NCBI RefSeq assembly: GCF_003387475.1
Contig: NZ_QUNO01000004.1
Span: forward strand, 496,001-560,000
Direction: 5' to 3'
Length of the DNA stretch: 64,000 bases
Source: Kutzneria buriramensis
GTDB lineage: Bacteria; Actinomycetota; Actinomycetes; Mycobacteriales; Pseudonocardiaceae
In this document: positions 1 through 14,825 of the stretch, piece by piece
How positions within the stretch are numbered: the stretch's first letter is position 1
Layout: the number at the start of each line of letters is the position of its first letter
Position numbers and translations under genes: made by a program
Notes under the pieces: generated by a model
Databases searched by the model: none
Seen by the model: the letters and a program-made list of their open reading frames with translations, nothing else
What the model was told of the DNA's origin: nothing

Positions 1-147
1 ATCGAGACGGTCGCGGGGGACATCGCCGACGAGGTGCTGACCGACGAGCGGGTGCGCGAGGTCGAGGTGACGGTGCACAAGCCGTCGGCGCCGATCCCAC
101 TGTCCTTCGAGGACGTGGCGGTCACGGTGCACCGGGCGCGGCCGTGA
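1..147 (+). CDS. folB: Dihydroneopterin aldolase FolB, C-terminal part (5' end outside window)
   Basis: Only the last 48 codons are present, in frame from base 1 to a TGA at 145-147. The tail reads [20 protein letters not shown], which matches the conserved FolB C-terminus (V-KP-API---F-DV-V). FolB converts dihydroneopterin to 6-hydroxymethyl-dihydropterin in folate synthesis and is cytoplasmic. The stop overlaps the GTG of folK (GTGA), so the two are translationally coupled. The assignment rests on this short tail and on the folK neighbour. Confidence 0.85.
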
Positions 148-632
148 CGAGGGCGGTGTTGTCGCTGGGGTCGAACCTGGGCGACCGGTTCGGTTTCCTC
201 CAGGGTGCGGTGACGGGCCTGAAGGAGTACCTGCGCGCGGTGTCGCCGGTGTACGAGACGGCCGCGTGGGGCGTCGAGGACCAACCGGACTTCCTGAACG
301 CGATCGTGGTGGTGGACGCGGACGACGTCGACGAGTGGGGCTGGCTGCGGTTGGGGCAGCGGCTGGAGAACGAGGCCGGACGAGTCCGAACGAAACACTG
401 GGGCCCGCGCACGCTTGATGTCGATGTGGTCACTGTGGACGGTGTGACGTCTGAGCATCCTGAGTTGTCGCTGCCACATCCGGGAACTCCGGAGCGTGCC
501 ACCGTGCTGATTCCGTGGCTGGACGTGGAGCCGGACGCGGTGCTGCCGGGACATGGTCCGATCGCTGCGGTGATGTCCGGTTTGAGCGCCGAGGGTGTAC
601 GCCGCCGCGACGATCTCCGCCTGGAGTGGTGA
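144..632 (+). CDS. folK: 2-amino-4-hydroxy-6-hydroxymethyldihydropteridine diphosphokinase FolK
   Basis: HPPK transfers pyrophosphate from ATP to hydroxymethyl-dihydropterin, the step after FolB. The 162-residue product has the usual family length. It shows the opening [10 protein letters not shown] (residues 6-15), the catalytic-loop region [14 protein letters not shown] (about 82-95) with the two Mg-binding aspartates of DVD, and the LPHPG motif near 110. The GTG start overlaps the folB stop, and its own TGA overlaps the ATG of the next gene by one base (630-632/632-634). The fol genes and the DUF3180 gene therefore read as one operon. Confidence 0.95.
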
Positions 633-1099
633 TGAAGTTCACGAAAATCCGGGATCTCGTCGGTGTTGCGCTGGTAGCCGGCCTGCTGACGGCGATTTTG
701 CTGAAACTGGTCTACGCGGACCTTCCGACGCTGCCCCGACTGACCGGCGTGACCTTCGGCGTGCTGGCGATCGTCGAGGCGATCCTGGCGTGGCAGCTGC
801 GCAATCGCATCGCCCGCAAGGACGGCGCGCGGCCGGTGCAGCCGTTGACGGCGGCGCGGGCGGTCGCGTTGGCGAAGGCGTCGTCGCTGGTGGGCGCGCT
901 CATGGTCGGCGTGTGGGTCGGGGTGCTGGTGACCGTTTTTCCGATCATGGCGTCGTCCGCGGCGGCGGGCGAGGATCGGACGACCGCACTCGTCGGACTG
1001 GTCGGTTCGGCGGCGCTGGTTGCCGCCGCCCTGTGGCTGGAACACAGCTGCAAAACGCCCGATCCTCCGCAGCAGGATGACAATGTCGGTCTCCGTTGA
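632..1099 (+). CDS. DUF3180 family membrane protein (Rv3605c-like)
   Basis: 155-residue integral membrane protein of unknown function. Four hydrophobic segments are visible: around residues 9-25, 36-55, 85-105 and 118-136. Actinobacteria commonly carry a DUF3180 gene directly after folK (Rv3605c in M. tuberculosis), which is the main basis for the call. The ATG at 632 overlaps the folK stop by one base, so the much longer upstream reading frame (from 515) is not the real start. No enzymatic motif is visible. The position suggests a membrane function tied to folate genes, but that is inference only. Confidence 0.85.
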   Translation: MKFTKIRDLVGVALVAGLLTAILLKLVYADLPTLPRLTGVTFGVLAIVEAILAWQLRNRIARKDGARPVQPLTAARAVALAKASSLVGALMVGVWVGVLVTVFPIMASSAAAGEDRTTALVGLVGSAALVAAALWLEHSCKTPDPPQQDDNVGLR

Positions 1100-1157
1100 G
1101 GGGCCAATCGAGTCCGGGTAGGTCTCGTTCGGGTAACTGACCGGTACCGTAGAGCCC

Positions 1158-2681
1158 ATGACCGGCCGCAGCGGCTTGACCGAAGGCGAGCGCGGTGACA
1201 GTCGTGGATACGGTCGGCTACTCCTGGTAGCGGTTCTCGTCCTGGCCATCGCCGCGACCGCCGTGCTCGTCCTGAGCAACGACGCGAGGTTCTTGCGCCT
1301 CGGCGTCCTCGCAGCGCTGTGGGCCGCCCTGGTGGGGGCGTTCCTCGCGGTCAAGTACCGCAGAGAGGCCGCCGCGAGCGAGGACGAGGTCGCCGACCTC
1401 CAGGCCGTCTACGAGCTGGAGCTGGAGCGCGAGGTCGCGGCCCGGCGCGAGTACGAGTTGGAGATCGAGGCCGAGACGCGCCGCCGCGTGGAGGAGGAGT
1501 CCCGGGAGGACCTGGACGCCCTGCGCGGCGAGCTGCGGGCGCTGCGGGAGAACCTGGAGGCGCTGCTCGGCGGCGAGGTGCTGGTGGAGCGGGTGGCGCT
1601 GCGCGCGGAGTCGACGCGCATGCGGTCGCTGTCCGACCAGTCGCGGCTGTTGGCCGTGGGCGAGGACCGCATCATCGCCAAGGAGGAACGCAAGCCGATC
1701 ACCGTCGGCACCGTGCGCAAGGAGACGCCGGCGGACAAGTCGGTGCTTCAGACGGAGTTGATCGAGCGGATCGCGCACGAGCCGGTGCGGGCCAAGGAGC
1801 AGTCGCCGCGGCGGCCGGAACCGAGCCGTCCGGAGCCGTCGCGGCAGCCGCTGCGGTCAGCGCAGACCGACGCGTTGAGCCGGCCCGCTTCGCAGGGACG
1901 GCGGGAGCCGCAGCGTCCGGCGCAGCAGCCGGCCCCGACCCAGTTCGTGAGCCGCCCGGCCGCCGCGAAGTCCGCCGAGGCCCGGCCGGCCGAACGTCGT
2001 CCCGAGCCGCGCCAGCCGGAGCCGCGCCAGCCCGAACCGCGGTCGACGGGTATGCCCGGCGTGGTCGGCATGCGGGTGCGGCCGCCGGAGCCGTCCCAGC
2101 CGATGGCGCAGCCGCCGATGTCCCAGCCCATGTCGCAGCCGGCGCGGGCGGCGGAGCCTCGCCAGCCGCGCCGCCCCGAGCCGCGTCAGCCCGAGCAGCG
2201 GACCCAGCGGCCGGACCCGGCGACGACCACGATGGCGATGCGCCTCAACCCCGATGCCCCGCCGGCGTCCCGTCAGCCGGCCGCCGCCGAGACCTCCGGT
2301 CGCCGTCGTCGTCCCGACCCCGAGGCCACCGCCATGTCGCCGATGCCGACGCAGGCGGAGACGTCCGGTCGCCGTCGTCGTCCCGAGCCGCCAGCAGCGG
2401 CGCCGGCACCGGCTGCCGCCGCCCCGCCGGAGCCCGCCGTGGACGGTCCGGTGTGGGACCCCGAGCTGGGCGACTGGGTGCCGAACTCGCTGGAGCTGCC
2501 CATCCCGGTGCGGACCGCCCCGGCCGTCACGCCGGCGCCGGCCCCCAGCGCGCCGCCGGTTCCGCCGACGCCGCCGGTCGTCGACACGGGCGCGCATGCC
2601 GCCGGCAAGTCCGTCAGCGAGCTGCTGGCCGCGTTAGGCCAGGACGAGTCGCGCGGCCGTCGCCGCCGTCGGTCGGACTGA
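1158..2681 (+). CDS. DUF6779-type membrane protein with coiled coil and Pro/Arg-rich tail (Rv3604c-like)
   Basis: 507 residues. Two adjacent membrane segments (about 21-40 and 47-66) are followed by a charged, Glu/Arg-rich coiled-coil stretch (about 70-140). After that comes a long disordered region rich in Pro, Arg, Gln and Glu with repeated PEPRQPE-like motifs and three RRRRP-type clusters. The position between DUF3180 and the pantothenate genes matches M. tuberculosis Rv3604c, annotated as an Ala/Arg/Pro-rich transmembrane protein. Function is unknown; the architecture suggests a membrane-tethered scaffold. Residue 493 is encoded by TTA (2634-2636), a very rare leucine codon in such genomes. 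The stop lies one base from the convergent stop of the NuoD-like gene, with no terminator between them. Confidence 0.85.
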   Translation: MTGRSGLTEGERGDSRGYGRLLLVAVLVLAIAATAVLVLSNDARFLRLGVLAALWAALVGAFLAVKYRREAAASEDEVADLQAVYELELEREVAARREYELEIEAETRRRVEEESREDLDALRGELRALRENLEALLGGEVLVERVALRAESTRMRSLSDQSRLLAVGEDRIIAKEERKPITVGTVRKETPADKSVLQTELIERIAHEPVRAKEQSPRRPEPSRPEPSRQPLRSAQTDALSRPASQGRREPQRPAQQPAPTQFVSRPAAAKSAEARPAERRPEPRQPEPRQPEPRSTGMPGVVGMRVRPPEPSQPMAQPPMSQPMSQPARAAEPRQPRRPEPRQPEQRTQRPDPATTTMAMRLNPDAPPASRQPAAAETSGRRRRPDPEATAMSPMPTQAETSGRRRRPEPPAAAPAPAAAAPPEPAVDGPVWDPELGDWVPNSLELPIPVRTAPAVTPAPAPSAPPVPPTPPVVDTGAHAAGKSVSELLAALGQDESRGRRRRRSD

Positions 2682-2682
2682 G

Positions 2683-3822
2683 CTACTTGTCGATGTCCCC
2701 GACGACCACGGCGAAGGAGCCGAGGACGGCGGGGAGATCCGCGACGCGGGTGCCGGGGAGCAGGGCCGACAGGGCCTGCACGTTATTGAACGACGGAGTG
2801 CGCAGCTTGAGCCGCCACGGGGTCTTCTCGCCGCGTGAAGCCAGGTGCACGCCGGAGATGCCGAGCGGGGCCTCGGTCCACACGTAGACGGAGCCCTCGG
2901 GGGCCTTGACGGCCTTGGGCAGCCGCAGGTTGACCGGCCCGGACGGCAGCTCGTCCAGGGTGGACGCGATCAGCCGCAGGGACAGCTCGATCTCGCCGAC
3001 CACGCATTCGACGCGGGTCAGCGCGTCGCCGGCGGTGCCCAGCACGGGCTGGAAGTCCTGGTACGCAAGGTGTTCGCCGTCGCGGCGGAGATCGACGTCG
3101 ACACCGCTGGCCCGACCGGTGGGCCCGGTGACGCCCAGCGCCAGGGCGGCCTCACGGGTGAGCACGCCGAGGCCGGTGTGCCGGGTGCGGAAGGCGTCGT
3201 CGTCGACGGTGGCGGCGCGAACGGGGGCCAGCAAGGAGGAAAGTTCCGTCAGCAGCGCCCGGACGTTCGAGGTCCAGCCGGCGGGCATGTCCTCGCGCAG
3301 GCCGCCGATCCGGTTGGCCATGAAGTGGATCCGCCCGCCGGAGGCCTGCTCCATCACGGCCTGCACGGCTTCCCGGCCTCGCAGCGCGGCGACTGTGCCG
3401 GGGGTTGGCGTGCCGGTGAGCGAGCGGGTCAGCGGCGCGAGGAAGACCAGGTGCGCCAGCATCCGGTTCAGCTCGCACAGGATCATTCGCAGCCGTACGG
3501 ACCGCGGCGGCACGTCCATGCCGGTCATCCGCTCCACGGCCAGCGCGACGGTGAGCTCGTTGCAGAAGGCGGCCAGCCAGTCGTGCCGGTTGGCCAGGGT
3601 GAGCACCTGCCGGTAGTCCCGCACCTCGAATAGCTTCTCCGCGCCGCGGTGCAGGTGTCCGACGAGCGGCTCGGCCTGGGTGACGATGTCGTCGGCGACG
3701 GTGAGCCGCAGCCGGTACGCGCCGTGCGCCGACGGGTGCAGCGGCCCGAGGTCGATGACGTGGTCGACGCCCAGGTACCTGGCCCCGGCGCCGACGCCGA
3801 CAGTGATCTGCACGGGCCTCAT
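2683..3822 (-). CDS. Orphan NuoD-like (complex I 49-kDa / NDUFS2 family) protein
   Basis: 379 residues, shorter than a full NuoD (about 440 in actinobacteria) but aligning over most of it. Visible motifs: LGPLHPSAHG (25-34), GHLHRGAEKL (55-64), NRHDW plus FCNE (78-89), SGGRIH, RIGGLREDMP and the GDIDK end. The Arg in the HRG motif (R59) corresponds to bovine NDUFS2 Arg85, the residue dimethylated by NDUFAF7. The quinone-site tyrosine of canonical NuoD (DY, bovine Tyr108) appears here as Trp82. No other nuo gene lies in the window. The ATG at 3822 overlaps the stop of the upstream MidA-type methyltransferase (ATGA), so the pair is translationally coupled. It is a paralogue of unknown role rather than the respiratory NuoD itself. 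Confidence 0.8.
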   Translation of the reverse strand: MRPVQITVGVGAGARYLGVDHVIDLGPLHPSAHGAYRLRLTVADDIVTQAEPLVGHLHRGAEKLFEVRDYRQVLTLANRHDWLAAFCNELTVALAVERMTGMDVPPRSVRLRMILCELNRMLAHLVFLAPLTRSLTGTPTPGTVAALRGREAVQAVMEQASGGRIHFMANRIGGLREDMPAGWTSNVRALLTELSSLLAPVRAATVDDDAFRTRHTGLGVLTREAALALGVTGPTGRASGVDVDLRRDGEHLAYQDFQPVLGTAGDALTRVECVVGEIELSLRLIASTLDELPSGPVNLRLPKAVKAPEGSVYVWTEAPLGISGVHLASRGEKTPWRLKLRTPSFNNVQALSALLPGTRVADLPAVLGSFAVVVGDIDK

Positions 3823-4781
3823 GCTCGCACGAGGCCGATGCCGGCCGAGCGGGGACAGAGCAGCCAGTGGAAGCCGCCGAGGCCGGCGGGGTCGCGCAGT
3901 TCGACGACCCGGCCGGCACGGGCGGAGGCCGCGAGCCAGCCCGTCGGATCCCGCAGGGCCATCTCGACGGGAGGCGCCGAAGCGGTGATTCCCAAGGCTG
4001 CCAACGCATCCCGCTGGGTCATCAGCTCGTACGGACCATCGACGGCCGCGGCGACGGCGTCGAAGGCGACGTGCGCGGTGATGTCGCAACTGCCGTCCGG
4101 CACCGGCGGCACCTGCCGGCCCGCCCGGTAACCGGTGAGGGTGCCGGCGAACGGACGAGACCCGGCGAAGTGGCCGTAGTCGACTGCCAATGCGGCCCCT
4201 GCTGCGACTCGCGCCACCAAGTCCGCCCACGCGGCGTCCCGCGTCGACCCGATCTCCGCCCGCCGGCCGTCAGCGGACAGCGGCCACCACCTCGACAGCC
4301 ACCGCGAAGACACCGCAGCGCCAAGGGATTCCGTTCCATCGGCGGACACATGAACCTCGAAGATCCCGTTCCCGTGCATCTGCACGACGCGGCATGGCAG
4401 CGAGTCCAGCCACTCGTGGGCGATGACCAAGCCCGTCACCTGATCGGGCAGTTCCGACGACCACTCGACACCGGCCGGCAGTGCCGGCCGGACCAGCTCG
4501 ACGGCCCGCACGCGCAGCCGTCCGCCGAACCGCGCGGCCAACGAATGGACCTGTGCGGCGAGCTCCCCGCCGCCGGCCCCGACGTCCACGAAATCCAGCG
4601 GATCCGGCCGGTCCAGGGCCAGATCGACGCGCTCCAGCAGCGCCACCACGGCCTCGGCCAGCTCCGGTCCGACCAACGGGGAGGTGCGGAAGTGGTCGGC
4701 GGGGCGGGCCCCGCCGGCGAAGAAGCCCGTTGGTCCATACAGCGCTGCCCGCCAGGCCCTGTGCCAGTCGGGGTGTTCCAT
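3819..4781 (-). CDS. SAM-dependent methyltransferase, MidA/NDUFAF7 (DUF185) family
   Basis: 320 residues. The family signature is clear: a Gly-rich loop then HFRTSP (30-35), the SAM loop VDVGAGGGELAAQ (65-77), AHEWLDSLP (121-129, equivalent to the NE-LDALP motif), VDYGH (200-204), and GTLTGYR followed by CDITAHV (213-238). Mitochondrial NDUFAF7/MidA symmetrically dimethylates an arginine of the complex I subunit NDUFS2 and is needed for complex I assembly. Here the gene is followed, with an ATGA overlap, by a NuoD-like protein that retains the target arginine motif, which suggests an enzyme-substrate pair (inference). The ATG at 4781 faces the divergent PrsW-type gene across a gap of about 33 bp (or 12 bp with the alternative PrsW start). 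Confidence 0.85.
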   Translation of the reverse strand: MEHPDWHRAWRAALYGPTGFFAGGARPADHFRTSPLVGPELAEAVVALLERVDLALDRPDPLDFVDVGAGGGELAAQVHSLAARFGGRLRVRAVELVRPALPAGVEWSSELPDQVTGLVIAHEWLDSLPCRVVQMHGNGIFEVHVSADGTESLGAAVSSRWLSRWWPLSADGRRAEIGSTRDAAWADLVARVAAGAALAVDYGHFAGSRPFAGTLTGYRAGRQVPPVPDGSCDITAHVAFDAVAAAVDGPYELMTQRDALAALGITASAPPVEMALRDPTGWLAASARAGRVVELRDPAGLGGFHWLLCPRSAGIGLVRA

Positions 4782-4814
4782 CGGGTCAACCTTATGGCCC
4801 TATGGTTCACCCCC

Positions 4815-5984
4815 GTGACGACAGCAGCGCCACGGACCCGGACCGTGTTGGCCCCGGTGGTCGGACTGATCGCCCTCGGCCTGGCCGGACTCATCCTGCT
4901 GGGACTCGGCGTGGGCAAGGTGGGCCCGCTCGGCGTGGCCGTCGGCGCGGCCGCCGCGCTGCTGCCGGTCGGCCCGGTGGTCGCCGTCTTCCTGTGGATC
5001 GACCGCTGGGAGCCGGAGCCGGCGAAGCTGCTGTGGCTGGCGTTCCTGTGGGGCGCGTGCGGCGCGACCATCTGCGCGCTGCTGATCAACAGCACCGCGG
5101 AGGCGCTCGGCGACCTCGCCTTCGGGCACGGCGGCGGCAACACGATCGCGGCCACCATCTCGGCGCCGATCGCCGAGGAGGCGGCCAAGGGCGTTTTCCT
5201 GGTCGGGCTGCTCGTGTGGCGGCGGCAGGAGTTCGACGGCCTGGTCGACGGCATCGTCTACGCGGGATTCGTCGCCACCGGCTTCGCCTTCACCGAGAAC
5301 ATCGAGTACTTCGGCCGCGCCTTCGTGACCTACGGCTTCGGCGGCGCGACCGGGGGCGTGATCGCGGCGTTCGTGCTGCGCGGGGTGTTGGCGCCGTTCA
5401 CGCATCCGCTGTTCACCGCCATGACCGGCATCGGAATCGGCATCGCCGCCCGCACCACCAGCAGCAAGGTCCGGGTGTTCGCGCCGATCGCCGGCTACGT
5501 GTGCGCGGTGCTGCTGCACTCGCTGTGGAACTCGTCGGCGACGCTGGGCGGCGCGGACACGTTCCTGGTCGTCTACTTCCTGGTGATACTGCCGATCCTG
5601 GGCGCGATGGCGGCGCTGGTGGTGTGGCAGCGCCGTCGCGAGCAGCGGGTGGTGGCGGCCCAGCTTCCCGGCCTGGCCGCGGCGGGGTGGATCGCGGACA
5701 GCGAGGTGTCGCTGCTGTCCAGTCTCGCCGGCCGGCGAGGCTGGCGGGCGGCGGTGCGCAAGCGCGCCGGCAGCAACGCGGCGCGCGCCGTGCACTCGTA
5801 CCAGACGGCCGCGACGGAACTGGCGTTTCTGCGGGACGCGGTCGAGCACGGCACGGCCGGCCCGGACGCCGACGTGCGGCAGCGGCAGTTGTTGGGGACG
5901 ATGCTGACCGCGCGGCGGGCGGCCATGAACGCGCCCGACGCGCTCAAGGCGACCCGGCATCACCTGGACCGACGCCAGCAGTGA
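4815..5984 (+). CDS. PrsW-family intramembrane metalloprotease-like protein
   Basis: 389 residues with about eight membrane segments in the N-terminal 270 residues and a soluble basic tail of about 120 residues. The PrsW/CAAX-protease-like motifs are present: EEAAK (121-125), ENIEY (161-165), HPLFT (197-201) and HSLWN (235-239). These supply the glutamates and histidines expected at the active site. PrsW of Bacillus subtilis cleaves an anti-sigma factor; the substrate here is unknown. The start is uncertain: GTG 4815 is chosen, but an in-frame ATG at 4794 would add seven residues and leave only 12 bp to the divergent methyltransferase. No clear ribosome binding site decides this. Confidence 0.85.
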   Translation: MTTAAPRTRTVLAPVVGLIALGLAGLILLGLGVGKVGPLGVAVGAAAALLPVGPVVAVFLWIDRWEPEPAKLLWLAFLWGACGATICALLINSTAEALGDLAFGHGGGNTIAATISAPIAEEAAKGVFLVGLLVWRRQEFDGLVDGIVYAGFVATGFAFTENIEYFGRAFVTYGFGGATGGVIAAFVLRGVLAPFTHPLFTAMTGIGIGIAARTTSSKVRVFAPIAGYVCAVLLHSLWNSSATLGGADTFLVVYFLVILPILGAMAALVVWQRRREQRVVAAQLPGLAAAGWIADSEVSLLSSLAGRRGWRAAVRKRAGSNAARAVHSYQTAATELAFLRDAVEHGTAGPDADVRQRQLLGTMLTARRAAMNAPDALKATRHHLDRRQQ

Positions 5985-6126
5985 CACCCGGTCTCGGCGG
6001 CGCCGGGCGCACCCGTGAAACTAGTCACGGCCGCCGGGCTGAATCGAAGAGTCCGGTTAGCCTCGTCCGGTCCGGTACCCGGCGTCTGATCGGGCCTGGA
6101 ACAGCGATAAGGGAGCTCCTGCCATC

Positions 6127-7020
6127 ATGACTCGCCCCGCCCGGCTCGCCGTGGGCGTGGTGTCCGCCGGCAGGGTCGGCTCGGTGCTCGGCGCCGCGCT
6201 GGCCAGGGCGGGCCACGTCGTCGTCGCCGCCTCCGGCGTGTCCAAGGCGTCCGTGCACCGCGCCGAGGAGCTCCTGCCGGACGTGCCGCTGCTGCCGCCG
6301 GACGAGGTCGCCGCGCGGGCGGATCTGGTGCTGCTGGCCGTGCCCGACGATGCCCTCGGCGGCCTGGTGCGCGGCCTGGTGGCGACGGAGTCGCTGCGGC
6401 CGGGGCAGATCGTGGTCCACACCTCCGGGGCGCACGGCGTCGAGGTGCTGCGGCCCGCCGCCGAGGTCGGCGTGCTGCCGCTGGCGCTGCACCCCGCGAT
6501 GACGTTCACCGGTCGCGCCGAGGACCTGCACCGCGTGGTGGCCTGCTGCATCGCGGTCACCGCCGGCGCCGACGACCATGCCGCGTGGAACGTCGGCGAG
6601 GCGCTGGTGGTGGAGATGGGCGGCGAGCCGGTGCGGGTGCCGGAAACGGTCCGCCCGCTGTACCACGCGGCCCTCACCCACGGCGCGAACCACCTGGCCA
6701 CGTTGGTCACCGAGTGCGTGGACCTGCTGCGCAACGCCGGCATCGAGCCGGCGGAGCGGGTGATCAGCCCGCTGCTGTCGGCGGCGCTGGACAACGCGCT
6801 GCGGCACGGCGACCGTGCGCTGACCGGGCCCGTCGCCCGCGGCGACATCGGGACCGTACGCAAGCACCTGGCCGTGCTGCGGGACGCTTCGCCGGACACC
6901 GTGCCGGGCTACGTGGCGCTGGCCCGCCGCACCGCGCGCCGGGCCGCCGAGGTCGGCGTGCTGCGCGCGGACGCCGTGCCCGAGATCCTGTCCGTGCTCG
7001 ACGAGGAGACCGAGAGATGA
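6127..7020 (+). CDS. Rossmann-like and DUF2520 domain protein (Rv3603c-like)
   Basis: 297 residues. An N-terminal Rossmann fold ([15 protein letters not shown], residues 8-22, a GxGxxG-like nucleotide loop) is followed by a helical DUF2520 domain (LHPAMTFTG near 120, [14 protein letters not shown] near 180), as in short-chain beta-hydroxyacid dehydrogenases. The family is an uncharacterised NAD(P)-dependent dehydrogenase. It overlaps panC by four bases (ATGA), as in M. tuberculosis, so it is transcribed and translated with the pantothenate genes. No panE-type ketopantoate reductase lies in this cluster. A reductase role in the pathway is possible but not shown. The ATG at 6127 follows a GGGAGCTCC stretch that is a plausible ribosome binding site. 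Confidence 0.85.
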
Positions 7021-7907
7021 ATCTGACCCGGACCGACTACGCGCCCGGGCAGCTGACCGCGCACACCAGCCCGGACAAGCTGGGCCGGATCACCCGGGCG
7101 CTGCGCGTCGCCGGCCGCAAGGTGGTGCTGGTGCCGACCATGGGCGCGCTGCACGAGGGCCACCTGGAGCTGGTGCGCCGGGCCAAGCGGCTGGCCGGCA
7201 CCGTGGTGGTGGTGTCGATCTTCGTGAACCCGCTCCAGTTCGGCGCGAACGAGGACATCGACCGGTACCCGCGGCCGCTGGAGGCCGACCTGGACAAGCT
7301 CCGGGCCGAGGGCGTGGAGCTGGTGTTCACGCCCGGCGTCGAGGACATCTACCCGGAGCCGCCGCAGATCACCGTGCAGCCCGGCCCGCTCGGCGACGAG
7401 CTGGAGGGCGCGGTGCGCAAGGGCCACTTCGCCGGCGTGCTGACCGTCGTGGCCAAGCTGTTCAACATCGTCCGGCCGGATATGGCGTTCTTCGGGGAGA
7501 AGGACTACCAGCAGCTCCAGCTGATCCGCCGGATGGTCCGCGAGCTGCAGTTCGACGTGCAGGTCGTGGGCGTGCCGACGATCAGGGAGGCCGACGGCCT
7601 GGCCCTGTCCTCGCGCAACGTCTACCTGTCCCCGGAGCAGCGGGAGGCCGCGGTGGCGCTGTCCGCCGCGCTGGCCGCCGGCCGGCACGCCGCCTTCGAC
7701 GGCGCCGAGGCCGCGCTCAAGGCCGCCGGCGACGTGCTGGCGTCCCAGGACGGAGTGGACGTGTTCTACCTGGAGCTGCGCGCCCCCGACCTCGGCCCCG
7801 CGCCGGCGACGGGCGACGCGCGGCTGCTGGTCGCCGCCAAGGTCGGGAACACCCGGCTGATCGACAACGCCCCGGTGCAGCTCGGCGCCGTGGTCGCGAA
7901 CCAGTAG
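7017..7907 (+). CDS. panC: Pantothenate synthetase PanC
   Basis: 296 residues. ATP-dependent condensation of pantoate and beta-alanine in the cytoplasm. The nucleotidyl-transferase HIGH-like motif [10 protein letters not shown] (40-49) is present, along with FVNPLQFG, the pantoate-binding FGEKDYQQL region and the ALSSRNVYL loop that stands in for KMSKS. The start overlaps the DUF2520 gene and the stop lies 13 bp before panD. This puts synthetase, aspartate decarboxylase and pantothenate kinase in one operon. Confidence 0.97.
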
Positions 7908-7920
7908 AGGGGGCGGGCAC

Positions 7921-8385
7921 ATGTTCCGCACGATGCTGAAGTCCAAGATCCACAGAGCCACGGTCACCCAGGCCGACCTGAACTACGTCGGCTCGGTCAC
8001 CATCGACGAGGACCTGATGCAGGCCGCCGACCTGCTGCCCGGCGAGCAGGTGGCGATCGTCGACGTGACCAACGGCGCGCGGCTGGAGACCTACGTGATC
8101 CCCGGCGAGCGGGGCAGCGGCGTCATCGGCATCAACGGCGCCGCCGCGCACCTGGTGCACCCGGGGGACCTGGTCATCCTCATCTCGTACGGGGTGATGG
8201 ACGAGATCGAGTCCATCGCCTACCGGCCGAAGGTCCTGTTCGTCGACGCCGACAACAAGATCCTGGACCGGGGCGACGACCCGGCGCACGCGCCGGTCGA
8301 CTCGGGCCTGGCCTCCGGCGCGGAGCTGCGCGGCGAGACCTCCGACGCGGCGCGGCTGGACGCGCTGCTCCAGGCGGAGGCGTAG
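7921..8385 (+). CDS. panD: Aspartate 1-decarboxylase PanD (pyruvoyl enzyme precursor)
   Basis: 154 residues. It makes beta-alanine for PanC. The self-processing site is Gly24-Ser25 in NYVGSVTID; cleavage turns Ser25 into the pyruvoyl group. Lys9, Arg54-equivalent and Tyr58-equivalent motif regions ([18 protein letters not shown]) are intact. The C-terminal tail after about residue 120 is acidic and longer than in Escherichia coli, as is common in actinobacteria. Start ATG 7921 has GAGGGGGCGGG just upstream. Confidence 0.96.
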
Positions 8386-8391
8386 ACACCC

Positions 8392-9177
8392 GTGCTGCTG
8401 TGCGTCGACATCGGCAACACCAACATCTCGCTGGGCCTGTACCGGGGCGAGGAGCTGGTGCACGACTGGCGGATGCGGACCGACGCACGGATGACGGCCG
8501 ACGAGCTGGCGCTGGGCATGCGAGGCATGCTCGGCCCGCTCGCCGACAAGGTGACCGGGGTGTCGGCGTTGTCCACCGTGCCGGCCGTGCTGCGTGAACT
8601 GCGAGTGATGCTCGGCCGCTACTACGGCGACGTGCCGCGCATCGTCGTGCAGCAGGGCGTGCGCACCGGAGTGCCGCTGCTGGTCGACAACCCGCGTGAG
8701 GTGGGCGGCGACCGGCTGGTCAACACCATGGCCGCGCACCACCTGTTCGGCACCGCCTGCGTGGTGGTGGACTTCGGCACGTCGACCAACATCGACGTGT
8801 CCACGGCCAAGGGCGAGTTCATCGGCGGGGCCTTCGCGCCCGGCATCGAGATCTCCGTGGACGCGCTCGCCGCCCGGGCCGCCCAGCTGCGCAAGGTCGA
8901 GCTGGTGCGGCCGCGGTCGGTGATCGGCAAGAACACCGTGGAGTGTCTCCAGTCGGGCATCCTCTACGGCTTCACCGGCCAGGTCGACGGCCTGGTCCGG
9001 CGGATCACCGCCGAGCTGGCGGCGTCCGGCGCCGGGCCGGTCACGGTGATCGGCACCGGCGGCCTGGCCCCGCTCGTTGTGGGGGAGTCGGAGACGATCG
9101 AGCATCACGTTCCGGAACTCACCCTGCTGGGCCTGCGCCTGGTCTACGAGCGCAACGTCTCCCAGCCGTCTTTTTAA
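8392..9177 (+). CDS. coaX: Type III pantothenate kinase CoaX
   Basis: 261 residues. It phosphorylates pantothenate, the first step of CoA synthesis, and needs a monovalent cation. The ASKHA-fold phosphate loop DIGNTNISLGL (5-15), the catalytic region DNPREVGGDR, VVDFGTSTNIDV and GGAFAPGIE are all present. The normal C-terminal LGLRLVYERNV is followed by only five residues. The GTG start is six bases after panD. The sequence directly after the TAA is the truncated body of a histidine kinase in another frame, so the original downstream junction has been rearranged, but coaX itself looks complete. Confidence 0.95.
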   Translation: MLLCVDIGNTNISLGLYRGEELVHDWRMRTDARMTADELALGMRGMLGPLADKVTGVSALSTVPAVLRELRVMLGRYYGDVPRIVVQQGVRTGVPLLVDNPREVGGDRLVNTMAAHHLFGTACVVVDFGTSTNIDVSTAKGEFIGGAFAPGIEISVDALAARAAQLRKVELVRPRSVIGKNTVECLQSGILYGFTGQVDGLVRRITAELAASGAGPVTVIGTGGLAPLVVGESETIEHHVPELTLLGLRLVYERNVSQPSF

Positions 9178-9830
9178 GGCACCTCGACCTGGCCGACGAG
9201 ATCGCCGGCAGCGCCGACCCGCTCACCCCCGAGCTCGTGCGCGACGCCCGCACCCAGGCCCATGCGCTGAAGGCGCTGGTCAACGACCTGATCGACCTCG
9301 CCCGCTACACGAGCGTCGAGTCCCACACCGAGGACACCCGGCTCGACCTGCTCACCCAGCAGGTCGTCGACCGCACGATGGCGCTGGCCACCGTCACGAC
9401 CCGAGGCATCGGCTTCCGGCTCGACCTCGAACCGTGCCTGGCCCGGGTGGATCCCGACGCCATGCACCGGGCCGTCGCCAACCTCCTCGACAACGCCGTC
9501 AAGTGGGGCCCCGCCGGCGGCGCGATCCTCGTTGAGCTGCGCCGCACCGCCGGCGGCCACGTCGAACTCGGCGTCCAGGACCACGGGCCGGGTATCCCGC
9601 CCGAGGATCTGTCACGCGTCTTCGACCGCTTCTACCGGTCGCCGGCCGCGCGGGCCATGCCCGGCTCCGGCCTGGGGCTGGCGATAGTCCGTCAGATTGC
9701 CGAACAACACGGCGGCACGGTCAGCGCCGTCCCCAGCTCGACCGGCGCTCACATCCTGATGCGCCTGCCCCTGAGCCCGAGCGACCTTCAGGAGCGGATG
9801 GTCCGGAGCACCTCGACCCGCAGCGGGTAG
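9178..9830 (+). pseudogene. 5'-truncated sensor histidine kinase (DHp remnant + HATPase)
   Basis: The frame ending at TAG 9828-9830 encodes the second half of a histidine-kinase dimerisation helix pair and a complete ATP-binding domain: N box NLLDNAVKWG, G1 DHGPGIP, F box RVFDRFYRS, G2 GSGLGLAIV. Missing are any sensor or membrane region and the phosphoacceptor H box (SHELRTPL type). The frame runs straight back into the 3' end of coaX without a plausible start; the first in-frame GTG is 9237. No response regulator is adjacent. It is best read as a deletion remnant fused behind coaX. Its last 43 bases overlap the convergent methyltransferase gene. Confidence 0.75.
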
Positions 9831-10555
9831 TCGAACTCGCCCTCGGCGGTCTCCGGCCTCGACTTCAGGAACGCCAGCATCCGGTCCAGGGTCTCCGTCC
9901 GCAGCGGCTCGTCCATGGTCAGGAACAGCGAATGTGTCTCGGCCGTCGCCACCAGCGACTCCGCCGTCCGCCGCTGGCTGTGTTTGAACTCGGCCCGTGC
10001 CAGCGGCCCGAACGGCCCCAGCTCCACCGGCAGGTCGATGCCCTTCTTGTTCGGCACGTTGTCGGTTTCGATCTTGGTCGCGGTGTGCAGCCGGTCCAGG
10101 TTCCTGACCCAGTCCACGCTCACGTCGTCGTCGTTCCAGACGCCGGCCAGCACGCCGCCGGGCCGCAGCACGCGGCCGAGTTCCGGCATCGAACGCGTGT
10201 GGTCGAACCAGTGCATGGCCTGCCCGGCCAGCACGGCGTCGACGGAGCCGTCCGGCAGCGGGATGTCCTCGGCGGTCCCGGCCAGCGCCTGGACCTCCGG
10301 CATCCGCGCCGACAGCTCGGCCCGCATCGCGTCGTCCGGCTCGACGGCCACCACCTCGACGCCCAGCGAGGCGATCACCGCCGTCAGCTTTCCGGTGCCG
10401 GCGGCCAGGTCCAGCACCCGCGGCGCGGCCGCGAGAACCGGCTCCAGCGCCCACCGCACCGCCGCCGCCGGGTAGTCCGGCCGGTGCTCCGCATAGTCCG
10501 CCGCCCGGCGGCCGAACGACGATGCCCTCTTTGCGATCATCTCGTCACTTGTCAC
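9788..10555 (-). CDS. Class I SAM-dependent methyltransferase
   Basis: 255 residues. An N-terminal SFGRRAADYAEHRPDYP segment typical of one bacterial methyltransferase group is followed by the SAM loop VLDLAAGTGKLT, the acidic VEPDD motif, GTAEDIPLPDGSVDAV and QAMHWFD, and LRPGG (motif IV/post-IV). The substrate is unknown. The GTG at 10555 is used; an ATG at 10540 would remove five residues. It is divergent from lysS with a 54-bp gap and convergent with the kinase remnant. It is absent at this place in M. tuberculosis, so it belongs to the accessory insertions in the block. Confidence 0.8.
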   Translation of the reverse strand: MTSDEMIAKRASSFGRRAADYAEHRPDYPAAAVRWALEPVLAAAPRVLDLAAGTGKLTAVIASLGVEVVAVEPDDAMRAELSARMPEVQALAGTAEDIPLPDGSVDAVLAGQAMHWFDHTRSMPELGRVLRPGGVLAGVWNDDDVSVDWVRNLDRLHTATKIETDNVPNKKGIDLPVELGPFGPLARAEFKHSQRRTAESLVATAETHSLFLTMDEPLRTETLDRMLAFLKSRPETAEGEFDYPLRVEVLRTIRS

Positions 10556-10609
10556 GGCGCGAGTATCCCGATAGTGGTCACGGCCGGCGACTACGTAACC
10601 TTGTGAGCC

Positions 10610-12118
10610 GTGACCGAACAGACCCCTTCCCATTCCGCCACGGACGACGACCTTCCCGAGCAGCTCCGCATCCGCCGGGAGAAGCGTGCGCGGATGCTGG
10701 AACGGGGCGTGTCGCCCTATCCGGTCGAGCTGCCGCGCACCCACTCGCTGCTCGAGGTCCGTGAATCCCACACGGATCTCGCGCCCGACACCGCGACCGG
10801 CGACATCGTCGGCGTCACCGGCCGAGTGATGTTCATCCGGAACACCGGCAAGCTGTGCTTCGCCACGTTGCGTGAGGGCGACGGAACCGAACTCCAGGCG
10901 ATGCTGAGCCTCGCACAGGTCGGCGAGGAGTCCCTTTCCGAGTGGAAGGCGACCGTCGACCTCGGCGATCACGTATTCGTGCACGGAGAGGTCATCACCT
11001 CGCGTCGCGGCGAACTCTCGGTGATGGCCGACGAGTGGCGGATGGCGGCCAAGTCGGTTCGCCCGCTGCCCGTCGCGCACAAGGAGCTGGCCGAGGAAAC
11101 GCGCATTCGGCAGCGTTACGTCGACCTGATCCTGCGGCCGCAGGCCATGGAGACGGTGCGCACCCGCGCCGGCGTTGTGCGTTCCCTGCGCGATTCGTTC
11201 CACGCCCGGGGTTTCCTCGAAGTCGAGACGCCGATGCTGCAAACGTTGCAGGGCGGCGCGTCCGCGCGCCCGTTCGTCACGCACTCGAACGCGCTCGGGA
11301 TTGACCTGTTCCTGCGGATCGCGCCGGAACTGTACCTGAAGCGCTGTGTGGTCGGCGGTATCGAGAAGGTCTTCGAGATCAACAGGAACTTCCGGAACGA
11401 GGGATCCGACTCCTCGCACTCGCCGGAGTTCGCGATGCTCGAGTTCTACCAGGCTTATGGCACTTACGACTCGATGGCCGTGCTGACCAGGCAGCTGATC
11501 CAGGAGGCCGCGCAGGCCGTGCACGGCACCCAGGTCGTGACCCTGGCCGACGGCAGCGAGTACGACCTGTCCGGCGAGTGGACCGCGCTGACCATGTACG
11601 GGTCGCTGTCCGAGGCGCTGGACTCGGAGATCACCCCGGAGACCCCGGCCGAGCTGCTGCGCAAGCACGCCGACGAGCGCGGCCTGGAGACCGATCCCAA
11701 GCTCGGCCACGGAAAGCTCGTGGAGGAACTGTGGGAGCATCTGATCGGCAACCACCTGCACGCGCCGACATTCGTGCGCGATTTCCCGGTGGAGACCTCG
11801 CCGCTGACCCGCGAGCACCGCGATACGCCGGGACTGGCCGAGAAGTGGGACCTCTACGTCCGCGGATTCGAGCTGGCCACCGGTTACTCCGAGTTGGTCG
11901 ATCCGGTGGTGGAGCGCCAGCGGTTGACCGACCAGGCGCGGCTGGCCGCGGCCGGCGACGACGAGGCGATGCCGGTCGATGAGGACTTTCTGCGTTCGCT
12001 GGAGTACGGAATGCCACCGAGCGGTGGTGTCGGAATGGGCATCGATCGGCTGCTGATGGCGCTCACCGGTCTCGGTATCCGGGAGACGATCCTGTTCCCA
12101 CTCGTGCGACCCGAATGA
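10610..12118 (+). CDS. lysS: Lysyl-tRNA synthetase, class II
   Basis: 502 residues. It charges tRNA-Lys in the cytoplasm. The OB-fold anticodon domain occupies residues 55-160. The three class II motifs follow: motif 1 [10 protein letters not shown], motif 2 [20 protein letters not shown] and motif 3 [13 protein letters not shown]. The GTG start at 10610 is used. The coaX-lysS-lsr2-clpC order matches M. tuberculosis Rv3600c-Rv3596c. The codon pattern is less extreme in GC than in neighbouring accessory genes, as expected for a highly expressed gene. Confidence 0.96.
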
Positions 12119-12137
12119 GGTGATTCGGCGGCTGCCA

Positions 12138-12168
12138 TTGACGGAACGCGATAGATATGCGCTAATCT
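12138..12168 (+). promoter_or_regulatory. Candidate lsr2 promoter
   Basis: A TTGACG hexamer (12138-12143) and TAATCT (12163-12168) are separated by 19 bp in an unusually AT-rich stretch about 75 bp before the lsr2 start. This resembles a housekeeping sigma promoter with a slightly long spacer. No transcript start is known. Confidence 0.4.
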
Positions 12169-12241
12169 GTTCCCAAGACAGATTTTCCGGGCAGCCGCCG
12201 ATGGACCCTTTCCGCGGCGCACGTTGCGTAGGAGGCCGCTC

Positions 12242-12592
12242 ATGGCGCAGAAGGTCACTGTCGCCCTGATCGACGATCTGGACGGGTCCGAGGCGAGTGA
12301 GACTCTCGAGTTCGCACTCGACGGCGTGTCCTACCAGATCGATCTTTCGGCAAAGAATGCCGGCAAGTTGCGCGACGGATTGGCGTCATTCGTCGCGTCG
12401 GCCCGCCGCTCCGGCGGCCGCAAGCGCGGCCCCGGCCGCGTCGCGAGCGGCCCGAGCAAGGCCCGTCCGGCGGCCGCGGACCGCGAGCAGAACCAGGCGA
12501 TCCGGGAATGGGCCCGCAAGCAGGGCATGAAGGTGTCCGACCGGGGTCGCATCCCGGCCGAGGTGCTCGACGCCTACCACCAGCAGGCCTGA
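12242..12592 (+). CDS. lsr2: Nucleoid-associated protein and H-NS-like silencer Lsr2
   Basis: 116 residues. Lsr2 bridges AT-rich DNA and silences horizontally acquired genes in actinobacteria. The N-terminal dimerisation domain ([16 protein letters not shown]...) is followed by a basic Gly/Arg/Pro linker (about 60-85) and the C-terminal DNA-binding domain. That domain has the helix IREWARKQG and the minor-groove hook SDRGRIP (RGR). Length and layout match the family. The ATG at 12242 is preceded by a GTAGGAGGCC ribosome binding site. Confidence 0.97.
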
Positions 12593-12606
12593 CCGATGGT
12601 CCGCCC

Positions 12607-12636
12607 GAAGGGGCCGCCCGCCGGGGCGGCCCCTTC
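12607..12636 (+). terminator. Hairpin terminator after lsr2
   Basis: A perfect 13-bp stem (GAAGGGGCCGCCC at 12607-12619 pairing with 12624-12636) closes a four-base loop, 14 bases after the lsr2 stop. It is followed by a short T-containing stretch. Confidence 0.75.
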
Positions 12637-12650
12637 GCCGTTCTTGATGC

Positions 12651-12699
12651 AGGGAAGGACGCCTTACCCTCGTTCACCGCAGGGAAGGCGTCCTTCCCC
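12651..12699. repeat. Inverted repeat of GGGAAGGACGCCTT type
   Basis: Two arms, AGGGAAGGACGCCTTACCC (12651-12669) and AGGGAAGGCGTCCTTCCCC (12681-12699), are near-perfect inverted copies. Each arm is itself partly palindromic. The element lies between the lsr2 terminator and the iron box. It could be a bidirectional terminator or a short dispersed palindromic element; no second copy was found in the window. Confidence 0.6.
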
Positions 12700-12723
12700 G
12701 CATGCGTCAGACCCTCCATTGGG

Positions 12724-12742
12724 TTCGGTTAGGCTAACCGAA
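12724..12742. promoter_or_regulatory. Iron box (IdeR/DmdR-type operator)
   Basis: TTCGGTTAGGCTAACCGAA is a perfect 19-bp palindrome about a central G. It is very close to the actinobacterial iron-box consensus TTAGGTTAGGCTAACCTAA bound by Fe-loaded IdeR/DmdR1. It lies 18 bp before the GTG of the first FecCD permease and should repress the importer when iron is sufficient. Confidence 0.85.
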
Positions 12743-12759
12743 GTCGGAGAGGAGGGCTG

Positions 12760-13773
12760 GTGGGCGCACTCGCGCGGCGACGCCGTCGCCGCATCGTCGG
12801 CCTCCTCGTGCTGCTGGGTCTGGCCGCGCTGGCCTGCCTCGCCAGCATCGCCATCGGCTCCAAGCCCATCGCGCTGGACGCGGTCTGGCACGGACTGACC
12901 GCACCCACCGACACCGAGAACGACATCATCGTCCGATCCCTGCGTATTCCGCGGACGGAACTCGCGCTGCTGGCCGGGGCCGCGCTCGGCGTCGCCGGCG
13001 CGCTGATCCAGGGCCACACCCGCAACCCGCTGGCCGACCCCGGCCTGCTCGGCGTCACCAGCGGCGCCGCGTTCGCGGTGGTCGTCGGCATCTTCGCGTT
13101 CGGCCTGACCAGCCTGTACGGCTACGTCTGGCTGGCCTTCCTCGGCGCGGTGCTGACCACCGGCCTGGTGTTCCTGCTCGGCGCGGCCGGCCGCGGCGGG
13201 CCGACGCCGCTGACCCTGGCGCTGGCCGGGGCGGCGGTCAGCGCGCTGATGGTCGGCCTGATCTCGGCGATGGCCGTGATCGACCAGCAGAGCCTGGAGG
13301 CGTTCCGGTTCTGGCGGGTCGGCGCGGTCGCCGGCCGCGATCCCGTGATCATCGGGCAGGTGCTGCCGTTCCTGGCGGTGGGCCTGGTGCTGGCGCTGGC
13401 CAACGCGCCCGGGCTGAACGCGCTGTCGCTGGGGGAGGACGTGGCCCGCTCCATCGGCCAGCACGTGCTGCGGACGCGGGTGCTCGGCCTGGTCGCGATC
13501 ACCCTGCTCACCGGCGGCGCGGTCGCGGCGTGCGGGCCGATCGGCTTCGTCGGGCTGGTGGTGCCGCACGTCGCCCGGTACGTCACGGGCCCCGACCACC
13601 GCTGGCTGCTGCCGTACGCGGGGCTGATCGGCGCGGTGTTGCTGCTGGTCGCGGACATCATCGGCCGGGTGATCGCCTGGCCGGGTGAACTCCAGGTGGG
13701 CATCGTGCTGGCGTTGATCGGCGCGCCGGTGTTCGTCGCCATCGTCCGGCGGAAGCGGCTGGTGCGGCTGTGA
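12760..13773 (+). CDS. Iron-siderophore ABC transporter permease 1 (FecCD family)
   Basis: 337 residues with about nine to ten membrane helices. FecCD motifs visible: RIPRTELALLAGAALGVAGA (about 66-85), QGHTRNPLADPGLLGVTSGA, FWRVGAVAG, and the coupling region GPIGFVGLVVPHVAR. It forms half of the membrane pore for Fe-siderophore uptake. The GTG at 12760 follows GGAGAGGAGGG, a strong ribosome binding site, directly downstream of the iron box. The stop overlaps the next permease (GTGA). No substrate-binding lipoprotein gene is in this cluster. Confidence 0.92.
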   Translation: MGALARRRRRRIVGLLVLLGLAALACLASIAIGSKPIALDAVWHGLTAPTDTENDIIVRSLRIPRTELALLAGAALGVAGALIQGHTRNPLADPGLLGVTSGAAFAVVVGIFAFGLTSLYGYVWLAFLGAVLTTGLVFLLGAAGRGGPTPLTLALAGAAVSALMVGLISAMAVIDQQSLEAFRFWRVGAVAGRDPVIIGQVLPFLAVGLVLALANAPGLNALSLGEDVARSIGQHVLRTRVLGLVAITLLTGGAVAACGPIGFVGLVVPHVARYVTGPDHRWLLPYAGLIGAVLLLVADIIGRVIAWPGELQVGIVLALIGAPVFVAIVRRKRLVRL

Positions 13774-14825
13774 CGGCGCTGCACGGGGTGCGGATCGGCC
13801 CGGTCGGCCTGCGGTTCCGGCTGCGGCCGCTGGTGGTGCCGCTGGTCGCGCTGGCGTTGACGGTCTTCGCGGTGGCGCTGAGCATCCGGCTCGGCGACTT
13901 CCCGATGTCCGTCGGCGACGTGCTGCGGGTGCTGGCCGGTGCGGGCGACGCGACCGAGCAGTACATCGTCTTCGACCTGCGGCTGCCGCGGACGCTGACC
14001 GGCTTGCTGATCGGGGCCGCGTTCGGTGTCGCCGGCGCGATCACGCAGGCGATCTCCCGGAACCCGTTGGCCAGCCCCGACATCCTCGGCGTCACCCCGG
14101 GCGCCTCCGCCGGCGCGGTCGGCGTGATCGTGCTGGCAAGCGGCTTCGGTGGGGTGGCCAGCGTGGCCGGGGCGATCGGCCTGCCGGTGGCGGCGCTGAT
14201 CGGCGGCCTGGTGTCGGCCGCGCTGGTCTACGTCCTGGCCTGGCGGCGGGGCGTGGACGGGTACCGACTCGTGCTGGTCGGCATCGGCGTGCAGGCGTTC
14301 ATGCTCAACCTCACGTACTGGCTGCTGACCATCGGCGACGTCAGCCAGGCCGGGCAGGCGCTGGTGTGGATCACCGGCAGCCTGGACGCCCGCAGCTGGG
14401 CCGACCTCGTGCCGGTGGCCGTCGCGCTCGCCGTGTTCCTGCCGTTGGCGTTGGTCGGGGCGCATGTGCTCGGCGCGCTCCAGTTCGACGACGACACCGT
14501 CCGCAACCTGGGCGCCCGCGTCGAGCTGAGCCGGTTCGCGCTGATCCTCATCGCCGTAATGCTCGCGGCGATCGCCACGGCCGCCGCCGGCCCGGTGTTC
14601 TTCGTCGCGCTGGCCACGCCGCAGATCGCCCAGCGGCTCGCCGGCACCGCCCGGCCGCCGCTGGTGGCGTCGGCGGTCATCGGCGCGCTGCTGGTCAGCG
14701 TCTCGGATCTGGTGGCGCGGACGGCGTTCCCCATCGAGCTGCCGGTCGGCGTCGTCACGGCCGTGCTCGGCGCGCCCTACCTGATGTTCCTGATCATTCG
14801 TAAGCGCCGGGAGGTGCGGGCGTGA
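13770..14825 (+). CDS. Iron-siderophore ABC transporter permease 2 (FecCD family)
   Basis: 351 residues and the partner of the preceding permease. It shows the FecCD signature LRLPRTLTGLLIGAAFGVAG, then RNPLASPDILGVTPGASAGA, WITGSLDARSW, and AGPVFFVALATPQIAQRL as the ATPase-coupling loop. The GTG start overlaps the upstream stop by four bases. The pair resembles the FepD/FepG arrangement of heterodimeric siderophore importers. Confidence 0.92.
   Translation: MTALHGVRIGPVGLRFRLRPLVVPLVALALTVFAVALSIRLGDFPMSVGDVLRVLAGAGDATEQYIVFDLRLPRTLTGLLIGAAFGVAGAITQAISRNPLASPDILGVTPGASAGAVGVIVLASGFGGVASVAGAIGLPVAALIGGLVSAALVYVLAWRRGVDGYRLVLVGIGVQAFMLNLTYWLLTIGDVSQAGQALVWITGSLDARSWADLVPVAVALAVFLPLALVGAHVLGALQFDDDTVRNLGARVELSRFALILIAVMLAAIATAAAGPVFFVALATPQIAQRLAGTARPPLVASAVIGALLVSVSDLVARTAFPIELPVGVVTAVLGAPYLMFLIIRKRREVRA

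Follow-up and report, generated by a model that had tools for sequence, protein, structure and literature searches.

In mitochondrial complex I, the methyltransferase NDUFAF7 of the MidA family (DUF185, PF02636) methylates R85 of NDUFS2 (PMC3829151). This arginine belongs to an HRGxEK motif close to cluster N2. At this NuoD position a dimethylated arginine is reported for mammals, yeasts and Paracoccus, and a threonine for Thermus thermophilus (PMC8042128). A second set of nuo genes without the NADH module, nuo2, with a separately located nuoD2, is in print for Streptomyces (PMC3765725, PMC8388888); its function is stated as unclear, and cooperation with canonical nuo proteins has been suggested (PMC9239103). 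Here, we analyzed a stretch of 64,000 nucleotides from Kutzneria buriramensis (contig NZ_QUNO01000004.1, positions 496,001 to 560,000; the window), which encodes a MidA-type methyltransferase (midA) overlapping the gene of a NuoD-like protein. This protein is the NuoD2 of nuo2, and comparison of genomes lends good support to MidA and NuoD2 being an enzyme-substrate pair. As an overall explanation, we consider it probable that the pair serves a ferredoxin-linked relative of complex I.

Compared with NDUFAF7 and NDUFS2, the partners are bacterial gene neighbors, the candidate substrate is a second NuoD with tryptophan in place of the quinone-site tyrosine, and methylation is a prediction. Both open reading frames (ORFs) and their ATGA overlap were confirmed (Table 1), and no other nuo genes were found beside them among the ORFs of window positions 1–9000, in agreement with the initial annotation. 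The overlap suggests translational coupling; −4 overlaps also occur at L042, L061, L087 and L090 (start codons chosen by script; G, C and L numbers are our handles for genomes, contigs and loci). MidA matched PF02636 with 85.5 bits (cut-off 23.3), the only match to this family in the window genome. Across 56 homologs from the window's class, 59 columns are at least 90% conserved, including G72, E123, D126, D201 and Y202, residues of S-adenosylmethionine-site and catalytic type.

The NuoD-like protein matched PF00346 with 198 bits but scored below every matched NCBIfam NuoD cut-off (308.8 of 360, 297.8 of 459 and 295.6 of 522 bits), and is therefore a paralog distinct from canonical NuoD. Its AlphaFold2 model is of high confidence (predicted local distance difference test 88.8, predicted template modeling score 0.91; local values below 50 only at residues 59–61 and 377–379), and the 50 rows listed by Foldseek for this model were all complex I or NDH-1 (49-kDa subunit; query template modeling scores 0.79–0.86). 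By sequence, complex I 49-kDa chains reached up to 322 bits, whereas the homologous large subunits of group 4 [NiFe] hydrogenases scored 199 (Mbh) and 187 bits (formate hydrogenlyase). The Ni-Fe site of [NiFe] hydrogenase large subunits is held by CxxC motifs. NuoD2 contains three cysteines and no CxxC, which rules out that it is such a subunit.

The residues R59 and W82, pointed out in the initial annotation, could be read directly from the sequence. Residue counts were based on 65 full-length NuoD2 of the class (five truncated copies were dropped from 70 matched loci), 50 NuoD2 loci of other classes (the 20 best-scoring and 30 picked from a longer list), and the best 80 of at least 563 confirmed matches in named genomes. 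Arginine at position 59 and tryptophan at position 82 were found in every one of these proteins (65/65, 50/50 and 80/80 for each residue). In contrast, all 60 canonical NuoD fetched from the class, which are part of those present, have threonine and tyrosine at these positions. Because canonical NuoD has threonine, NuoD2 is the only NuoD among those read that could be a substrate of an NDUFAF7-type enzyme; R59 was lost in none of the NuoD2. The motif HRG is not strict, whereas the arginine is, since the following residue varies in the other classes (L350–L399: Gly 30, Ala 18, Ser 2 of 50). W82, which we take to correspond to Y87 of T. thermophilus Nqo4 and Y144 of Yarrowia (by alignment with the canonical tyrosine), leaves NuoD2 without the quinone-site tyrosine expected of NuoD/NDUFS2.

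In 148 genomes of the window's class, we searched for MidA (PF02636 match) and NuoD2 (at least 195 bits, plus a short, interrupted match in G097; listed canonical NuoD matches had at most 166 bits). NuoD2 was found in 67 genomes, MidA in 64 and both in 59 (Fisher p 5e-26; the genomes are related, so Fisher values overstate independence). The two genes are thus conserved together in the class, and the dedicated enzyme-substrate pair proposed in the initial annotation is the best reading of these data. Of the eight genomes with NuoD2 only, two do carry MidA at the locus (a whole gene in G128, and in G020 a fragment that lies at the start of a contig), and in G015 and G097 contig ends lie near the loci at which MidA was not seen. 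Five genomes appeared to have MidA only; in G023 and G076 NuoD2 is cut by a contig end, and G014 and G108, 72–80% complete, have NuoB2. On 55 stretches with both genes, midA precedes nuoD2 on the same strand in 46 cases (10 within 20 bp); eight pairs are convergent and one is divergent, as counted with script-chosen start codons. Among the best 80 named-genome matches, 72 stretches also had a MidA match. Outside the class, a MidA match was present in the genomes of 14/15 NuoD2 encoded apart from nuo2 but of only 16/35 encoded within it (p 0.0016). A strict link of the two genes throughout the phylum was ruled out, as the other 19 operonic NuoD2 occur in genomes without a PF02636 match. In ten genomes, MidA lies 7.7–8.4 kb downstream of NuoD2 on the same strand, approximately where nuoN2 would end, judging from coordinates alone.

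Some side observations concern the same loci. midA and nuoD2 are often split by inserted genes (L035, L054, L068, L106 and others), up to approx. 11 kb at L074, and one recurring insert presumably encodes a cytochrome P450. At L107 (G097:C26; genome 77% complete), a TGA interrupts the nuoD2 gene.

The second nuo cluster has the order nuoA2-B2-C2-H2-I2-J2-K2-L2-M2-N2 and lacks D, E, F and G (several stretches were cut at one end). At least two matches to the NuoB2 profile at 1e-20 were found in 63/67 genomes with NuoD2 versus 8/81 without it. Where NuoB2 matched strongly, with a score of at least 158 bits, NuoD2 was present in 51 of 54 genomes. In other classes, nuoD2 lies between nuoC2 and nuoH2 in 35/50 loci and apart in 15 (read with approx. 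1.5 kb of flanking sequence on either side), whereas in the window's class it stands apart from the nuo2 operon. In a FastTree phylogeny, the 115 NuoD2 form one clade apart from the 60 canonical NuoD (support 0.72 for the complete clade and 0.97 for 112 of its members; 0.965 for the NuoD2 of the class and 1.0 for canonical NuoD). Based on the position in relatives and the common clade with operonic copies, the protein is the NuoD2 of nuo2, most simply read as having moved out of the operon. Hence "orphan", the term of the initial annotation, does not fit: nuo2 genes are present in the same genomes, and the missing subunit of the second cluster had already been named nuoD2 in Streptomyces. Nor is it the sole nuoD of the window genome, since a complete canonical nuoA-N operon exists on another contig, C1. 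A NuoC-type match lies between nuoB2 and nuoH2; in the accessible parts of the Streptomyces reports nuoC2 is not named, nor is nuoL2 in those of PMC9239103, but matches to both were found here. At L339 (G095:C1:5196000-5215900, 9191–15069), approx. 5 kb separate the nuoB2 and nuoC2 matches, while other loci are compact.

A further property of this second complex concerns the arginine itself. In Yarrowia, R121 of NDUFS2 is combined with T122 of NDUFS7, whereas T. thermophilus has a threonine in Nqo4 and R83 in Nqo6, the two arginine side chains occupying the same space (PMC8042128). We located the NuoB position of this intersubunit switch as the residue after (S/A)G of the VxSG/VAG strand, a reading of the motif rather than of a structure, with a pattern demanding the cysteine frame of an N2-type cluster; atypical copies are left out of the counts. 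NuoB2 has threonine at 84/84 pattern-matched loci (51 distinct), and at four more read by eye, whereas canonical NuoB has arginine at 11/11 loci (10 distinct), the reverse of the NuoD pattern. The two states known from Yarrowia and T. thermophilus, at positions taken as equivalent, thus exist side by side in one genome, each in its own paralogous complex and in matched pairs, NuoD-Thr with NuoB-Arg and NuoD2-Arg with NuoB2-Thr. Since a mixed complex would end up with a pair of arginines, or with none, beside the cluster, partnership of NuoD2 with NuoB2 is favored over mixing.

In the window genome, nuo2 consists of nuoB2-C2-I2 only (G000:C1, about 475354–476848). NuoH2 was not found there; the two NuoH matches of this genome are the canonical subunit at 426 bits and a hydrogenase-type homolog at 141 bits. 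Compared with an 11-subunit complex I (A–D, H–N), no membrane subunits were matched in the nuo2 cluster of the window genome, whereas relatives such as L179, L186 and L204 have them. The same three genes, with nuoI2 after nuoC2 and no nuoH2 match between, were found at 18 further loci, so that 19 genomes from nine families of the sample carry the reduced form. A match of the NuoH2 kind (330–352 bits) was absent in 16/16 searched of these 19 genomes, the other membrane subunits being checked at the loci; G060 (reduced, 78% complete) has no NuoH match whatever, and NuoH2 was not found in Kutzneria sp. 744, Crossiella, Lentzea or Saccharothrix. The suggestion of the initial annotation that the paralog is possibly non-respiratory may apply to this reduced form; many relatives keep the pumping subunits. 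At L183 (G030:C1:440000-459900, approx. 12547–14909), nuo2 is in decay, with NuoA2, B2, C2 and I2 matches and a NuoH2 remnant of 53 residues; no further membrane genes matched on this stretch.

The cluster-binding residues are retained in the reduced form: the four N2-type cysteines of NuoB2 (matched by pattern at 15/19 loci and read by eye at the other four) and the eight cysteines of NuoI2 are intact at 19/19 loci. NuoD2 of the 19 reduced systems was compared with 68 others (18 from genomes with nuoH2 in nuo2, and the 50 of other classes, 35 of them adjoining nuoH2). Conserved in both sets were 52 columns, including H29, H33, R59, D81 and W82. In the reduced set, 38 further columns are relaxed, mostly at 21–45 (first strand and loop), 123–149 and 204–215, from which we infer that a surface facing the membrane has been lost, while the side of the cluster is for the most part retained.

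Hints of an electron source were found near nuoB2. At L187, the alpha subunit of a 2-oxoacid:ferredoxin oxidoreductase (korA) scored 659 bits with TIGR03710, above the cut-off of 483; for the beta subunit, the PorB_KorB match fell just under its cut-off (253 of 262). korA shares a stretch with nuoB2 at 27/39 loci, namely 14/20 with a NuoH2 match (the L183 remnant included) and 13/19 of the reduced form; in the window genome it ends 6 kb from nuoB2 and is divergent. As general background, KorAB is known from actinobacteria without NuoD2 as well. Synteny of nuoABC with korAB is reported for Streptomyces (PMC13118837), and ferredoxin is the proposed donor for other enzymes without NuoEFG (PMC11238625). 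Among the latter, the 11-subunit enzymes of Desulfitobacterium and, as cited there, of cyanobacteria resemble nuo2 in lacking the NADH module and in a ferredoxin donor being proposed or used. They differ from the system described here, in which NuoD2 has tryptophan for tyrosine and is encoded off-operon with MidA in this class, and in which reduced forms have no recognizable membrane arm.

Taken together, NuoD2 would fill the place of the 49-kDa subunit in a second complex-I-like enzyme lacking an NADH module; the nuoD2 gene appears to have left the nuo2 operon and now lies beside midA. NuoD2 would pair with NuoB2, whose cysteines should hold an N2-type cluster, with R59 in the second sphere of this cluster. 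By analogy with NDUFAF7 and NDUFS2, MidA would dimethylate R59 during assembly. Electrons would probably come from KorAB, via ferredoxin or directly, and reach NuoB2 by way of NuoI2. Genomes with the membrane genes probably use menaquinone as acceptor and couple its reduction to ion pumping. For the window lineage, where only B2, C2, D2 and I2 remain, a soluble Q-module is expected, which should hand its electrons to some acceptor. The most specific form of this proposal is correspondingly tentative, and we regard it as possible rather than likely: a membrane-free, KorAB-fed NuoB2-C2-D2-I2 module in Kutzneria-like and many other actinobacteria, in which a MidA-methylated arginine tunes the N2-type cluster, tryptophan replaces the quinone tyrosine, and, instead of the buried quinone, a soluble or peripheral acceptor is reduced.

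Several points weigh against this explanation. The arginine is present but unmodified in Escherichia coli (PMC8042128). In the class, G083 (70% complete), G116, G127 and G137 have no MidA at the nuoD2 locus and no PF02636 match genome-wide; such absences are not certain, since PF02636 missed the MidA of G128. G069 has MidA with neither NuoD2 nor a second NuoB match, an unexplained exception. In other classes, R59 persists where no MidA was found, in 19/35 operonic relatives and one detached copy (G299), so the arginine is not kept solely for methylation. Three genomes (G005, G033 and G097) have NuoD2 without a second NuoB2-profile match at 1e-20, and in five (G003, G004, G009, G035 and G042) two matches of this kind were found but no NuoD2; a fourth genome without the second match, G128, lacks it because its single NuoB is NuoB2. 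Further, korA was not seen near nuoB2 at 12/39 loci, some of them cut by contig ends, and the columns relaxed in the reduced set include 56, 57, 84 and 88, near R59 and W82. The retention of R59 without detectable MidA in the operonic relatives and in the four class genomes, as well as the variable residue behind R59, would also suit a MidA that forms one unit with NuoD2 but targets another residue or protein, or acts as a non-catalytic chaperone. We consider this rather unlikely, as MidA's partner is the only NuoD with arginine at this position among those read in the class, the catalytic-type residues of MidA are conserved, and precisely this arginine is the residue that the family is known to modify (PMC3829151, PMC8042128).

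NuoD2 could also be swapped into canonical complex I as an alternative subunit, giving a hybrid machine, along the lines of the cooperation suggested for Streptomyces (PMC9239103). Sharing parts would be economical for a nuo2 without NuoE, F and G and, in the window genome, without a detectable NuoH2. Nevertheless, such a hybrid is very improbable given the matched switch states and the operonic position of nuoD2 in other classes. In addition, G128 (100% complete) encodes NuoD2, NuoB2, NuoH2 and MidA, while none of canonical NuoD, NuoB, NuoH and NuoF was matched in it, so that nuo2 can stand alone. The missing membrane genes, the short NuoH2 remnant in G030 and the 38 relaxed columns might mark the reduced nuo2 of the window lineage, nuoD2 included, as a decaying relic without function; with R59 and W82 among the columns conserved in both forms, all cluster cysteines in place and the reduced form spread over nine families, we give this little credence.

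An enzyme-substrate pair serving a second complex-I-like enzyme would extend what is known of nuo2 in several respects. Described in streptomycetes (PMC9239103), nuo2 was found here in many other actinobacteria, and the analysis identifies the NuoD that the cluster lacks, together with an enzyme that probably modifies it as its dedicated partner and a source from which the electrons probably come. The accessible text of the Streptomyces reports, which concern the same system, mentions neither MidA nor the Arg/Thr switch, the tryptophan for tyrosine or a form without membrane genes. Our literature search, with subscription journals mostly outside its reach, returned no link between MidA and nuoD2; as far as it goes, this link, the matched arginine switch in one genome, the invariant tryptophan and the reduced form without nuoH2 are new. 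Methylation of this arginine in a bacterium had been reported before, for Paracoccus (PMC8042128); the initial annotation is correct in that a paralog carries the target arginine. Since the arginine lies in NuoD2 in one complex and in NuoB in the other, the canonical and the second complex are predicted not to mix. A cell with both switch states, one methylase gene and one candidate target would be a clean system for the effect of dimethylation on N2, apart from that of the arginine itself, and the gene pair would offer a simple test bed for complex I arginine methylation in a soil actinobacterium. The reduced form would be a relative of complex I without a membrane arm.

Table 1. Features of the midA-nuoD2 locus and its divergent neighbor (window coordinates).
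Feature	Position	Strand	Description
midA	3819..4781	-	MidA/NDUFAF7-type (DUF185, PF02636) S-adenosylmethionine-dependent methyltransferase, 320 aa
nuoD2	2683..3822	-	NuoD/NDUFS2-family subunit of the nuo2 complex-I-like enzyme, 379 aa
ATGA stop/start overlap of midA and nuoD2	3819..3822	-	4 bases shared
Arg59 codon (HRG, within GHLHRGAEK)	3646..3648	-	equivalent of bovine NDUFS2 Arg85 and Yarrowia R121
Trp82 codon (within NRHDWL)	3577..3579	-	aligned with Tyr of canonical NuoD
His33 codon, N-terminal HPSAHG loop	3724..3726	-	kept in 64/65 NuoD2 of the class
PrsW-family intramembrane protease	4794..5984	+	PF13367, 186 bits; divergent neighbor, judged outside the unit

The PrsW-type gene next to midA has two candidate starts, an in-frame ATG at 4794, separated from that of midA by 12 bp, and a GTG at 4815 (33 bp). 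The 33 bp given in the initial annotation correspond to the GTG start. The neighbor looks incidental: it was seen at 1/79 loci, in the window alone, and was therefore excluded from the midA-nuoD2 unit. No promoter or terminator was detected in a scan of positions 2400–5100, a scan which is uninformative in a high-GC actinobacterium. On the other side, a DUF6779 gene (1158–2681, + strand) is convergent with nuoD2, the stop codons being one base apart. The locus tends to sit between folate genes and DUF2520/panC genes; HPPK and DUF2520 were matched to families. The window genome comprises 12 Mb in 65 contigs, and the nearest NuoD2 among the GTDB matches listed is that of Kutzneria sp. 744 (90% identity). 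The same genome encodes a fused NuoC/NuoD-type protein with hydrogenase-family matches (L004, G000:C7:260454-263906, 709–2208). NuoB- and NuoH-type matches lie near it on C7, pointing to a group-4-hydrogenase-like complex, and the hydrogenase-type NuoD homolog on this contig has HKG at the arginine position.

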